Shown in pieces: positions 5,139-27,845 of a stretch of 64,000 nucleotides of DNA (position 1 is its first letter; the number at the start of each line of letters is the position of its first letter). A program made the position numbers and the translations under genes. The notes beneath the pieces were generated by a model. That model worked only from the letters and a program-made list of their open reading frames with translations, did not search any database and was not told the DNA's origin. The stretch comes from Gracilibacillus oryzae (GTDB lineage: Bacteria; Bacillota; Bacilli; Bacillales; Amphibacillaceae): contig NZ_ML762425.1 in NCBI RefSeq assembly GCF_009498735.1, positions 212,011 to 276,010 on the forward strand, in the 5' to 3' direction.

Positions 5139-6026
5139 ATGGCAATCTCTGCAAAATTAGTAAAAGAACTAAGAGAAAAAACTGGTGCTGGAATGATGGA
5201 TTGTAAAAAAGCATTACAAGAAACAGATGGTGACATCGATCAAGCAATTGACTACCTTCGTGAAAAAGGTATCGCCAAAGCTGCTAAAAAAGCAGATCGT
5301 ATTGCAGCTGAAGGTTCTGCATATGTAGAAGTAGAAGGGAATACAGCTGTACTTCTTGAAGTAAACTGTGAAACAGACTTTGTAACAAAGAATGAACAAT
5401 TCCAGACATTATTAAAACAATTAGCACAACATATCCTAAGCCAAAAACCTGAAAATGTTGAAGAAGCTTTAAAACAACCTCTTAATGGTGAAGGTGAATC
5501 AGTGGAAGAATTTATCAACAGCAATATTGCTAAAATTGGTGAAAAACTTTCTCTTCGTCGTTTTACAACATTTACAAAATCAGACCAAGGTGCATTTGGT
5601 GCTTACCTTCACATGGGAGGAAGAATCGGTGTAGTGACAGTTCTTGAAGGTACAACTGACGAGCAAGTTGCAAAAGATATTGCGATGCATGCAGCTGCAG
5701 TAAACCCTAGATATCTTTCACGTGATGCGGTATCTGCAGAAGATATAGAAAAAGAACGTGAAGTACTTAAAACTCAGGCATTAAATGAAGGTAAACCAGC
5801 TAATATTGTTGAAAAAATGGTTGAAGGCCGTTTAAATAAGTTCTTTGAAGAGATTTGTTTATTAGAACAAAGCTTTGTTAAAGATCCTGATCAAAAAGTA
5901 AAACAAATTGTTAAAAAGCATAATGCAGAAGTAACAACTTTCGTTCGTTACGAAGTAGGTGAAGGTATCGAGAAACGTGAAGATAACTTTGCAGAAGAAG
6001 TAATGAGCCAAGTAAATCAAAAGTAA
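5139..6026 (+). CDS. tsf: translation elongation factor Ts
   Basis: EF-Ts is the nucleotide exchange factor for EF-Tu. The 295-residue protein starts [20 protein letters not shown] and has the UBA-like N-terminal domain with the signature [16 protein letters not shown], followed by the core motif [11 protein letters not shown] (EF-Ts signature 2) that contains the Asp and Phe which disrupt the EF-Tu Mg site. The start is set by AAGGAGG at 5124-5130. Length is typical for Bacillaceae. It follows rpsB as in almost all Firmicutes and ends in a strong terminator. Confidence 0.98.
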
Positions 6027-6042
6027 TGAAGTTTTTCTGAAA

Positions 6043-6066
6043 GGGACACATTGTGTCCCTTTTCTT
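6043..6066 (+). terminator. terminator after tsf
   Basis: GGGACA (6043-6048) pairs with TGTCCC (6054-6059), extended outward by AA/TT, followed by a T-rich tail TTTTCTTT. Confidence 0.75.
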
Positions 6067-6117
6067 TGAAAAAATATAGTTCTATTTGTCTTTAATAATC
6101 AAAACAGAGGATAAAAA

Positions 6118-6245
6118 GGACCGAGGAGTTCAAGGCACAGGTTTGAGAAGTGGAACGTATGCTTTTCATGCGTAAAAAGCGGAGAACCAAGCCAATGAAA
6201 AAATATGATATGTCATTTTTACCGGACTTTTGAACAACCTCTTAT
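6118..6245 (+). repeat. multi-branched structured intergenic element (possible dispersed repeat or ncRNA)
   Basis: The ends pair: GAGG-A-GTTCAA (6123-6133) with TTGAAC-AA-CCTC (6230-6241). Inside is an arm made of GGC 6134-6136/GCC 6191-6193, GGTT 6140-6143/AACC 6185-6188 and ACGTATG 6155-6161/CATGCGT 6167-6173 (loop CTTTT), with a symmetrical purine-rich internal loop (11 + 11 nt). A second arm is AATGA 6194-6198/TCATT 6213-6217. The element sits after the tsf terminator and before the pyrH promoter, so it belongs to neither transcript. I have an unverified recollection of similar intergenic elements in Oceanobacillus-like genomes; only one copy is seen in this window. Confidence 0.55.
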
Positions 6246-6254
6246 AGTTTTTAA

Positions 6255-6284
6255 TAGACAGATAAAGATAATTTTTATTATAAT
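6255..6284 (+). promoter_or_regulatory. sigma-A promoter of pyrH
   Basis: TAGACA (6255-6260), an 18-bp spacer and a consensus TATAAT (6279-6284). The start would be near 6291, leaving a 5' UTR of about 16 nt that contains the ribosome binding site TTGGAGG. Confidence 0.6.
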
Positions 6285-6306
6285 TAATACATATTTGGAG
6301 GTAATT

Positions 6307-7029
6307 ATGACTACTGCTAACTACAGAAGAATTGTTTTGAAATTAAGTGGTGAAGCTTTGAGTGGTGAACAAGGCTTTGGTATTGAACCATCAATTATTC
6401 AATCAGTCGCCAACCAGGTAAAAGACGTTGTGGAATTAGGTGTAGAAGTTGCTGTTGTTGTTGGTGGTGGCAACATTTGGCGCGGAAAAGTCGGCAGCGA
6501 GATGGGTATGGACCGTGCCAATGCTGATTATATGGGAATGTTAGCTACAGTCATGAACTCTTTAGCACTACAGGATAGTTTAGAGAATCAAGGTATTCCA
6601 ACAAGAGTCCAGACTTCTATTGAGATGCGCCAAGTTGCAGAACCTTATATACGCCGGAAGGCAATCAGACATCTGGAGAAGAAACGTGTGGTCATTTTTG
6701 CTGCCGGAACTGGTAATCCATATTTCTCTACAGATACTACCGCAGCATTAAGAGCAGCTGAAATTGAGGCTGATGTCATTTTAATGGCAAAAAATAATGT
6801 TGATGGTGTTTATACGGCTGATCCGAAAAAAGATAAGACTGCGACAAAGTATGATCAATTATCATACCTGGATATATTAAATGAAGGCTTAGAAGTAATG
6901 GATTCAACTGCTTCCACATTATGTATGGATAATGATATCCCATTATTAGTTTTTTCAATTTCTGAAGAAGGTAACATTAAAAAAGCTGTAACAGGTGAAA
7001 ATATTGGAACAATCATTAGGGGGAAATAA
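6307..7029 (+). CDS. pyrH: UMP kinase (uridylate kinase)
   Basis: PyrH phosphorylates UMP to UDP with ATP in pyrimidine nucleotide synthesis; the bacterial enzyme is a hexamer of the amino-acid-kinase fold, unrelated to eukaryotic UMP/CMP kinase. The 240-residue protein shows the ATP-binding start [11 protein letters not shown], the glycine loop [11 protein letters not shown], and [20 protein letters not shown], which is diagnostic for PyrH. The frame is open further upstream to 6205, but the ATG at 6307 has TTGGAGG at good spacing and matches the family N terminus. frr follows two bases after the stop, so the two are cotranscribed. Confidence 0.98.
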
Positions 7030-25578: not shown

Positions 25579-25739
25579 CTGTATGTAAAAAATAAATGAT
25601 AAAAAGACTAAATGTTGTTAATACTATGACATATACCAATGAATTGATAGAATTAGTTACATATGCAAGAACAACATGGTAAAATAGGAAATAGTTTATG
25701 AAAGCCTCAGTTGCTTTTTTGAGAGGAGTAAGATTTGAA

Positions 25740-27845
25740 ATGGCAGATGAAAAAAAAGTATTTTCAACGGAAATAGCAGGACAAACTTTCCGTGTGGAAA
25801 TAGGTGAATTGGCAAAACAGGCAAATGGTGCTTGTATGGTTCATTATGGTGATACTGCTGTGTTAGCAACAGCAACTGCTTCAAAAGAACCAAAAGACTT
25901 ACCTTTCTTCCCGCTAACAGTAAACTACGAAGAGCGTTTATATGCGGTTGGAAAGATTCCAGGTGGATTTATTAAGAGAGAAGGAAGACCTAGTGAAAAA
26001 GCTATTTTGACTTCCCGATTAATTGATCGTCCGATCCGACCATTGTTTCCGGATGGTTTTAGAAATGAAGTACAAGTTATCAGTACGGTTATGAGTGTTG
26101 ATCAAAATTTACCTTCAGAAATTGCTGCAATGATAGGTTCCTCTATTGCTCTTAGTGTTTCTGATATCCCATTCAGTGGACCAATTGCTGGTGTGGTTAT
26201 TGGACGAGTTGATGGTAAGTTTATCATTAACCCTACGTTAGAAGAACGGGAAAAAAGTGATATTGACTTAACAGTTGCTGGTACAAAAGATGCCATTAAT
26301 ATGGTGGAAGCAGGGGCAAATGAAGTACCTGAAGAAGTAATGCTTGAAGCAATTATGTTTGGTCATGAAGAGATTAAACGATTAGTTGCATTCCAGGAAG
26401 AAATTATTGAAGCATTACATGTTGAAAAAATGGAAGTGAAATTGTTTGAACTTGATCAGGCAATTGTGTCAGAAGTAGAAGGAAAAGCAAAACGATCACT
26501 TGTGGAAGCAATCCAGGTTCAGGAAAAGCATGCACGAGAAGCTGCGATAAATGCTGTTAAAGAGCAAGTTATGGCAAGTTATGAAGAAAATGAAGCAGAA
26601 GCAGATGTATTAAAACAAGCAGCCAACGTATTGGACAAGATTGTCAAAGAAGAAGTGCGCCGTCTAATTACGAAAGAAAAAGTACGTCCAGATGGAAGAA
26701 AAATTGACGAAATTCGTCCACTTTCTTCAAGAATCGGTGTATTGCCAAGAACACATGGTTCTGGTTTATTCACACGGGGTCAGACACAGGCTTTAAGTGT
26801 TTGTACATTAGGTGCATTAGGTGATGTGCAAATTCTTGATGGATTAGATGCAGAAGAATCGAAACGATTTATGCATCATTACAATTTCCCATCATTCAGT
26901 GTTGGAGAAACAGGACCAATCCGTGGACCAGGTCGTCGTGAGATTGGACATGGTGCCTTAGGTGAACGTGCATTAGAAGTAGTTATTCCGGAAGAAAAAG
27001 AATTTCCATATACGATCCGTCTTGTTTCCGAAGTCCTTGAATCGAATGGTTCAACATCACAAGCAAGTATTTGTGCAAGTACATTAGCAATGATGGATGC
27101 AGGTGTTCCAATTAAAGCACCAGTAGCCGGGATTGCCATGGGTCTGGTTAAATCAGGTGAAGATTATACGATTTTAACAGATATTCAAGGAATGGAAGAC
27201 TTTTTAGGTGATATGGACTTTAAAGTGGCAGGTACTGAAAATGGTGTAACTGCATTGCAAATGGATATTAAGATTGAAGGATTATCAAGAGAAATTTTGG
27301 AGGAAGCATTGATCCAGGCGAAGAAAGGCCGTATGCACATTCTTTCCCATATGTTAGAAACTATTAGAGAACCGAAAAATGAGCTTTCTAACTATGCACC
27401 GAAAATTTTAACAATGGATATTAATCCAGATAAAATCCGTGATGTAATCGGACCAAGCGGGAAACAAATTAATAAAATTATCGAAGAAACTGGTGTAAAA
27501 ATTGATATTGAGCAAGATGGTCATATTTTCATCTCTTCAACTGATAATGAAATGAATCAAAAAGCGAAGAAGATTATAGAGGATATTGTTCGTGAAGTGG
27601 AAGTCGGACAAATGTACCTTGGGACAGTAAAACGTATCGAGAAATTTGGTGCATTTGTTGAACTGTTTAAAGGAAAAGAAGGACTTGTTCATATTTCTGA
27701 ATTAGCAGAGGAGCGAGTAGGAAAAGTAGAAGATGTTGTGGCAATTGGTGATCAAATTATGGTGAAAGTAAAAGAAATTGATCGACAAGGCCGTGTGAAT
27801 TTATCAAGAAAAGCAGTCTTAGCAGAACAAAAAGAGAAGGAATAA
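25740..27845 (+). CDS. pnp: polyribonucleotide nucleotidyltransferase (PNPase)
   Basis: PNPase is the main 3'-5' phosphorolytic exoribonuclease of Bacillaceae. The 701-residue protein has two RNase PH domains (the second with [14 protein letters not shown] and [17 protein letters not shown]), the helical linker, a KH domain ([17 protein letters not shown]) and an S1 domain ([20 protein letters not shown]). The ATG at 25740 has GAGAGGAG eleven bases upstream; an in-frame ATG at 25698 does not match the family start. In B. subtilis ylxY follows pnp; here mlpA follows after a terminator. Confidence 0.98.

Follow-up and report, generated by a model that had tools for sequence, protein, structure and literature searches.

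The question raised by this locus is what kind of element occupies the spacer between tsf and pyrH of Gracilibacillus oryzae, and whether the fold first attributed to it is its own. In the window, by which we mean the whole 64,000-nt stretch of DNA that was analyzed, positions 6118-6245 had been proposed from the letters to form a three-way-junction-like element, lying outside both neighboring transcripts and representing either a dispersed repeat of the bacterial group or an undescribed ncRNA. HMM and covariance model searches together with a promoter scan bore out a distinct, repeat-related sequence between the tsf terminator and the pyrH promoter. The terminator (6040-6067, + strand) was recognized by eye and is common to relatives without the element; a terminator scan around the site reported none, this one included. 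The pyrH promoter (6255-6284, + strand, TAGACA-18-TATAAT) was found by the promoter scan, is kept in relatives and is separated from the end of the element by 13 bp. A position outside both neighboring transcripts agrees with this predicted terminator and promoter.

The folding energy of the segment told against the window copy. The minimum free energy of 6118-6245 was -26.6 kcal/mol, where shuffled sequences averaged -23.7 kcal/mol (z = -0.96) and 30 of 200 shuffles folded as well, and on the opposite strand 20 of 200 shuffles were as good (z = -1.28). When the borders were set by the family instead (6099-6241), 42 of 200 shuffles were as good (z = -0.77). Both stretches therefore fold at the level of shuffled sequence, and the idea that the nested complementarity is far more than random is not borne out. 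The minimum free energy structure of 6118-6245 does contain the closing stem that had been named, but this stem pairs the right end with an inner segment, whereas the family fold joins the right end to the left one; the right end probably finds this inner partner because the left end has decayed. The feature at this site is real while the fold as first described is not, so that the original prediction is partly confirmed.

Homology searches placed the segment in a repeat family. With 6090-6270 as BLAST query, 12 places were matched in the 4.63-Mb G. oryzae genome, amounting to nine copies with the window's own counted, and a sister copy used as query matched 24 of 61 genomes, G. oryzae included. 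The right end CTTTTTGAACAWCCTC, with up to one mismatch, occurred 37 times in the G. oryzae genome as compared to 0 for the pattern read backwards, and a pattern covering both end kinds occurred 74 times versus 6 in the control. The window element is a decayed copy of an ~152-bp MITE with a rod core, spanning 6099-6241 on the + strand (nhmmer E 1.7e-30, HMM positions 9-155 of 155); its nearest sister copies are 84-86% identical. Our full covariance model (R1) placed this copy at 6091-6241 as its sole match in the window (cmsearch E 7e-23).

The spread of the family is wide. A pattern scan of named genomes gave at least 102 stretches, and among the matches listed 97 were Bacillota by title, including Oceanobacillus, Gracilibacillus, Cytobacillus, Lederbergia, Terrihalobacillus, Pseudalkalibacillus, Priestia, Paenibacillus and other genera; the five listed stretches from other bins (Sulfuritalea, Betaproteobacteria, Nitrospinota) may be chance matches. 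R1 matched 57 of 299 genomes of the class. Its matches within single genomes numbered 79 for a Lederbergia, 77 for a Paenibacillus, 72 for Evansella, 47 for Priestia abyssalis, 31 for Cytobacillus depressus, 29 for Amphibacillus and 12 for Anaerobacillus. A model of the core (R2) matched 35 of 299 genomes of the phylum, some of them near the threshold, and 31 of these 35 lie outside the class. The suggestion of a dispersed repeat was thus right by BLAST, pattern scans and models alike, and its range extends beyond the Bacillaceae. BLAST of plasmids with three queries and of phages with one returned no match; a Paenibacillus copy used as query matched three Paenibacillus plasmid records at 32 places, and a scan of viral contigs found the core pattern in 25 of them. 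Four G. oryzae contigs (C13, C16, C36 and C39) end within about 100 bp of a copy, and the repeats may therefore break assembly. Lentibacillus sediminis carries a copy with an inner insertion between frr-like and uppS-like genes (L114, 1900-2900), in the gene neighborhood to which pyrH also belongs. In one Lederbergia genome (G359; L256, L257, L258, L260 and L262), smaller hairpin modules with motifs like ACGTCCTGT and CAGGATGT are nested in MITE copies, which thereby reach 214 to 280 bp; these modules are probably a second repeat family.

The family fold is a rod. Its consensus has no branch point in either R1 or R2, which leaves no place for a three-way junction; Paenibacillus-type forms of about 178 nt have an extra hairpin and hence branched single-sequence folds. 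In an alignment of 28 diverse copies (A3), compensatory changes were found in 20 of 39 predicted pairs, and 95.5% of cells were paired, as compared to 29.7-48.6% when partners were slid. There were 127 double-change cells, against a mean of 34 after shuffling and at most 18 after sliding, so the covariation expected of a conserved structured RNA exceeds both controls. In a wider alignment of 98 rows, one of them a duplicate, one pair occurs with all four Watson-Crick types (CG 33, GC 23, AT 18, TA 16), and three less decayed copies folded with z scores of -2.3, -4.8 and -6.5. A cross-family alignment of 26 core sequences had compensatory changes in 18 of 22 pairs; one of its pairs is mostly G-U (19 GU, 6 AU, 1 GC), the same pair being mostly A-U in A3 (24 of 28). 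The top of the rod is two-fold: GAGxAxCGGA, read from A3, occurs in either strand, so that a short helix containing an A.A mismatch is bordered at its two ends by GA/GGA loops. Many copies were selected by a pattern in the apical hairpin, and the constancy of that hairpin is therefore overstated. Pairing within the rod is maintained by compensatory change. A chance hairpin is rejected as an explanation of the family; the window copy taken alone has a folding energy at chance level.

To which strand this fold belongs could be read from a tree of 97 copies, from which the duplicate row of the window copy was left out. Watson-Crick pairs changed 80 times to G-U and 38 times to A-C, where the rates of unpaired columns, combined by hand, predict about 1:1. 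This excess of G-U means that one strand folds, and it is the strand written here, either as RNA or as single-stranded DNA. The changes are also unevenly placed on the tree, with 41 compensatory versus 26 breaking changes on inner branches and 33 versus 137 on terminal branches (p = 2e-9). Copies that spread seem to retain the fold while single inserted copies decay, so that the fold appears to matter for spreading; mildly harmful changes that have yet to be removed could add to the terminal excess of breaking changes.

With the family fold in hand, the parts of the window copy could be assigned, all on the + strand. Its left inverted end is a remnant at 6099-6109, where the alignments show TCAAAACAGAG for the family's TTCAAAAAGGAG and the outermost 8 bp are unrecognizable. 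The right inverted end at 6227-6241 is nearly whole, reading CTTTTGAACAACCTC, one T fewer than the family's CTTTTTGAACAACCTC. By the family boundary, the next five bases (6242-6246, TTATA) occupy the slot of the right-hand target duplication, for which no matching left partner was found in the window copy. The apical hairpin lies at 6155-6173 (ACGTATG-CTTTT-CATGCGT), corresponds to helix 8 of the family and is present in the minimum free energy folds. It is flanked by the two strands of the two-fold module, assigned by eye against A3, with GAGAAGTGGA at 6145-6154 on the 5′ side and AAAAAGCGGA at 6174-6183 on the 3′ side, each for the family's GAGxAxCGGA. In all, 35 of 46 family pairs are kept. 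We fetched 30 tsf-pyrH spacers from a search of 41 genomes and found the element in the spacer of G. oryzae and a weak partial match in one other (G018, E 1.5e-7).

The hallmarks of a mobile element are clear in the family and faint in this copy. Less decayed copies have the inverted ends GTGCGTGTTCAAAAAG and CTTTTTGAACAWCCTC, and at about 152 bp the dispersed copies are too short for a transposase gene. Exact 5-bp direct repeats were found at the model boundaries of 37 of 103 copies, against a mean of 5.4 and a maximum of 12 over 200 runs in which flanks were reassigned at random; frames shifted off the boundary gave at most 24. The remaining 66 copies have no exact 5-bp duplication, as expected of old copies, and in the window copy a duplication is likewise invisible. 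Identical copies were left out of this count and of the orientation counts given below. The flank alignment reads as an A+T-rich family target, C|TWWWA|G. Head-to-tail copies 158-159 bp apart occur in four cases in the G. oryzae genome, and another genome (G063) has a run of four copies 185 bp apart, spacings to be expected were a new copy to insert into the duplication left by an earlier one. Rod-less forms with both inverted ends also exist in G. oryzae, at 36, 50 and 67 bp (L263, L264 and L265 on contigs C4, C14 and C35), the 36-bp form with TAATA at both flanks. The family is best read as non-autonomous mobile elements (MITEs) moved in trans.

A candidate partner emerged from a 637-bp Lederbergia element that has family-like ends, flanks that are not exact duplications, and pieces of a reading frame. 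Neither piece had a confident Pfam match. The N-terminal piece matches a 442-amino acid transposase encoded by an Alicyclobacillus plasmid (55% identity, E 5e-11), and on visual comparison the two pieces look like the two termini of a 438-amino acid transposase in genome G155. The Alicyclobacillus protein has DUF772 and DDE_Tnp_1 domains, and its element has the ends GAGCGTGTCCGAAAAGC and GCTTTTCGGACAACCTC with TTTAT on both sides. The best NCBIfam match of the partner transposases is IS1182, at 107.1 and 99.6 bits; these scores fall below the equivalog cut-off of 270, and we therefore use the label IS1182-like only. Related IS end in GAGCCTGTTCAAAAAG or GAGCGTGTCCGAAAAG, with variants, and among seven distinct elements for which both ends were found, four have exact 5-bp duplications (TTTAT, TTAAT, TAATA and TGTTA) and three do not. 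In two genomes, IS and MITEs share the form of their ends, namely TTCAAAAAG in G155 and the CCG form in G246. Autonomous elements with ends similar to those of the family thus exist, and none of them is in the G. oryzae genome, where no such transposase was found at E 1e-30 or 1e-40.

Given the similar ends and the 5-bp duplications, an IS1182-like transposase suggests itself as the mover, and the MITE would be moved by it in trans. The association between the two across genomes is weak. At E 1e-30 the transposase was found in two of 32 genomes that bear the repeat or the core, and relatives at 1e-40 occur in ten of 299 class genomes, several of them broken or partial; the MITE is present in four of these ten as compared to 53 of the 289 others (p = 0.10). 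The partner is like an IS1182-family IS in domain content and best NCBIfam match, and its ends resemble those of the MITE, but its interior differs from that of the MITE: the sequence that they have in common is about 17 bp per end, and a search of 15 loci of related IS and remnants with the core model, at E values up to 1, returned no rod. Other routes to a partner failed. A search for inverted ends with a reading frame between them gave nothing convincing among the 60 listed of 88 candidate pairs, and the end pattern in G. oryzae, inspected by eye, gave short pairs of 36, 50, 67 and about 144-220 bp, together with a single 7.6-kb pair in which both ends are of the left type (L266). A Lederbergia locus with 5.75 kb between ends (L255) was rejected since it holds ordinary-looking genes, as judged by eye, and a MITE.

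The placement of cores relative to genes bears on how the rod might act. In a scan of 48 related loci with Rfam, part of whose rRNA loci had been chosen since rRNA sequence had been seen there, 12 placements of the core, spread over 11 genomes, were within or next to rRNA operons or tRNA genes, and all 12 were in sense orientation. The core precedes 16S in two genomes (G364 and G417) and 23S in four (G248, G217, G155 and G557), stands before or after 5S in three (G276, G135 and G332) and lies by tRNAs in three (G410, G155 and G612). Antisense cores were found beside tmRNA (G587) and upstream of a glmS ribozyme (G415). The G217 copy has its inverted ends, which by eye are lost from the spacer copies of G248 and G155. 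Copies between rRNA genes are expected, from their position, to be transcribed. Beside protein genes, orientation was close to random (63 sense, 46 antisense, p = 0.125). Copies pointed toward the downstream gene in mild excess (94 of 153, p = 0.006) and showed no such excess toward the upstream gene (76 of 153); genes here are ORFs of at least 90 amino acids rather than called genes, and the count leaves out matches of fewer than 90 model positions, 30 copies at locus ends and 10 far from genes.

Several of these loci hold further features. At L245 and L246 (G135) and L247 (G332), a stretch resembling the 3′ half of 5S rRNA (GCGCCGATGGTAGT...) comes after the core, and an Rfam-recognized 5S gene lies upstream. 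At L230 (G248), a Bacillaceae-1 RNA (RF01690, 23-207) lies directly upstream of the 5S gene, followed by the core and the 23S gene. At L288, a T-box leader (T-box match 1358-1781) contains a rod MITE, ends included, in sense orientation, and at L208 the core adjoins a GGTGGTACCGCG motif before a proB-like gene.

Could the element at the window site instead be a functional ncRNA or a leader of pyrH or tsf? Its position between terminator and promoter would suit such a role, as would the 22 of 28 classified G. oryzae copies that point at the downstream gene. Yet the spacers of the nearest relatives have the terminator and promoter without the element, as in the closest of them (G010); the element is outside both predicted transcripts, folds at the shuffled level and has lost 11 of the 46 family pairs. 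We regard this explanation as extremely improbable, and the window copy is most likely without any present role. The reading as an undescribed ncRNA is partly apt for the family, which covaries strongly and has no Rfam entry, and does not describe the window copy, a decayed insertion absent from the spacer of its nearest relative. The compensatory changes might also have arisen by template switching in imperfect palindromes (quasi-palindrome correction) rather than by selection on the fold, since the whole element is a quasi-palindrome and 74 double changes fall on single branches. However, such correction is strand-symmetric, yet G-U exceeds A-C; it removes mismatches, yet similar loops (GA/GGA, A.A) recur across families; and it should act on terminal branches too, where changes are mainly breaking. 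These points make it very unlikely. More weight falls on a rod that serves as a single-stranded DNA hairpin in a step of transposition, with no part for RNA. Selection would then fall on the propagating lineage, G-T is tolerated better than A-C in DNA too, and orientation beside protein genes is near random. Against this stand the related IS and remnants, in which the core model found no rod, the cores that persist without ends in two rRNA spacers, the uniform sense orientation at rRNA and tRNA placements, the purine G/A internal loops and the G-U pair kept across families, although it is mostly A-U in A3. On balance we consider the DNA hairpin unlikely. An RNA role of the rod is favored, as the rod is absent from the IS and its end-less cores in rRNA spacers are in sense orientation; the rod might, for example, be a hairpin that renders the insertion neutral or is excised.

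A different kind of alternative is that the family is already partly described. The bcr1 repeat is about 155 bp long, close to the length found here, and bcr1 and other group A repeats of the Bacillus cereus group were reportedly treated by Okstad in 2004, Klevan in 2007 and Kristoffersen in 2011. By description, these repeats resemble our family in their short, intergenic, MITE-like form, their length, an A+T-rich 5-base motif and their many copies. The passages on bcr1 tie this MITE-like repeat to a TTTAT motif (PMC3446304, PMC6542083), the same five bases that are duplicated around the Alicyclobacillus IS, name no partner transposase and describe bcr1 as specific to the B. cereus group. Our family is present in many other genera, and none of the 299 class genomes sampled had a 16S signature characteristic of the B. 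cereus group. That the element is bcr1 or a direct relative of it is thus possible, if somewhat doubtful. In their 2021 account of 5S expansion segments, Stepanov and Fox remark that motifs resembling the longer hairpin of one 5S rRNA insert turn up in other genomes, mostly between genes, with rRNA operon leaders and spacers among the sites (PMC7812874); as described in the text available to us, these motifs come without a stated link to inverted ends or target duplications, and the expanded 5S are from other orders. A survey of stem-loop repeats (PMC2267715), which includes Bcr1, Bhal-1 and Efa-1, likewise describes intergenic families with conserved folds in Firmicutes, there listed species by species in the part consulted.

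Although it is structured, covarying and RNA-like as Rfam families are, the element matched none of them. Rfam 15 at gathering score returned a single match in the whole window, rliD at 25712-25894 on the - strand (51.9 bits, cut-off 50), antisense to the start of a 715-amino acid pnp-like ORF (25698-27845), and left the element unmatched. When 5900-6500 was scanned permissively, all matches fell far short of their cut-offs, and across the 48 related loci no gathering-level match fell on the element, save the T-box match that spans the copy inserted at L288. A literature search, with subscription papers mostly out of reach, retrieved no recognized description of the family, and queries with end and core strings retrieved no paper on it, the core strings giving unrelated ones. 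The family is therefore without an Rfam description, and the nearest described repeats, set beside it by description, are bcr1 and the 5S-insert-like motifs.

Taken together, the homology, boundary and covariation analyses indicate that the window element is very probably a MITE, inserted in this lineage ahead of the pyrH promoter and decayed since, and from the comparison of sequences we infer that an IS1182-like transposase mobilizes it in trans and that the rod aids its spread as RNA. The rod would form in RNA and help the element to spread: as an insulated or processable hairpin, it would probably allow transcribed places, rRNA and tRNA operons among them, to tolerate insertions, without serving the neighboring gene. 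More tentatively, and with somewhat less than even confidence, we propose that a structured RNA core, with its two-fold GAGxAxCGGA module and CGTA...TACG cap, has become distributed over the Bacillota in two ways, carried inside IS1182-like MITEs and built into the leaders and spacers of rRNA and tRNA operons, where the 12 placements examined are all in sense. It would be a mobile RNA that renders its insertions bearable, or useful, at the RNA level. The window copy is a caution: read by itself, a decayed copy may point to a fold, in this case a three-way junction, that is foreign to its family. MITEs are generally thought to need little beyond their ends, and the preservation of an inside by compensatory change across a phylum calls for an explanation. 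Were the rod to work as RNA, this would explain how such repeats live in rRNA operons and leaders, and the rod would be a ready-made processing hairpin as well as a large family missing from Rfam.
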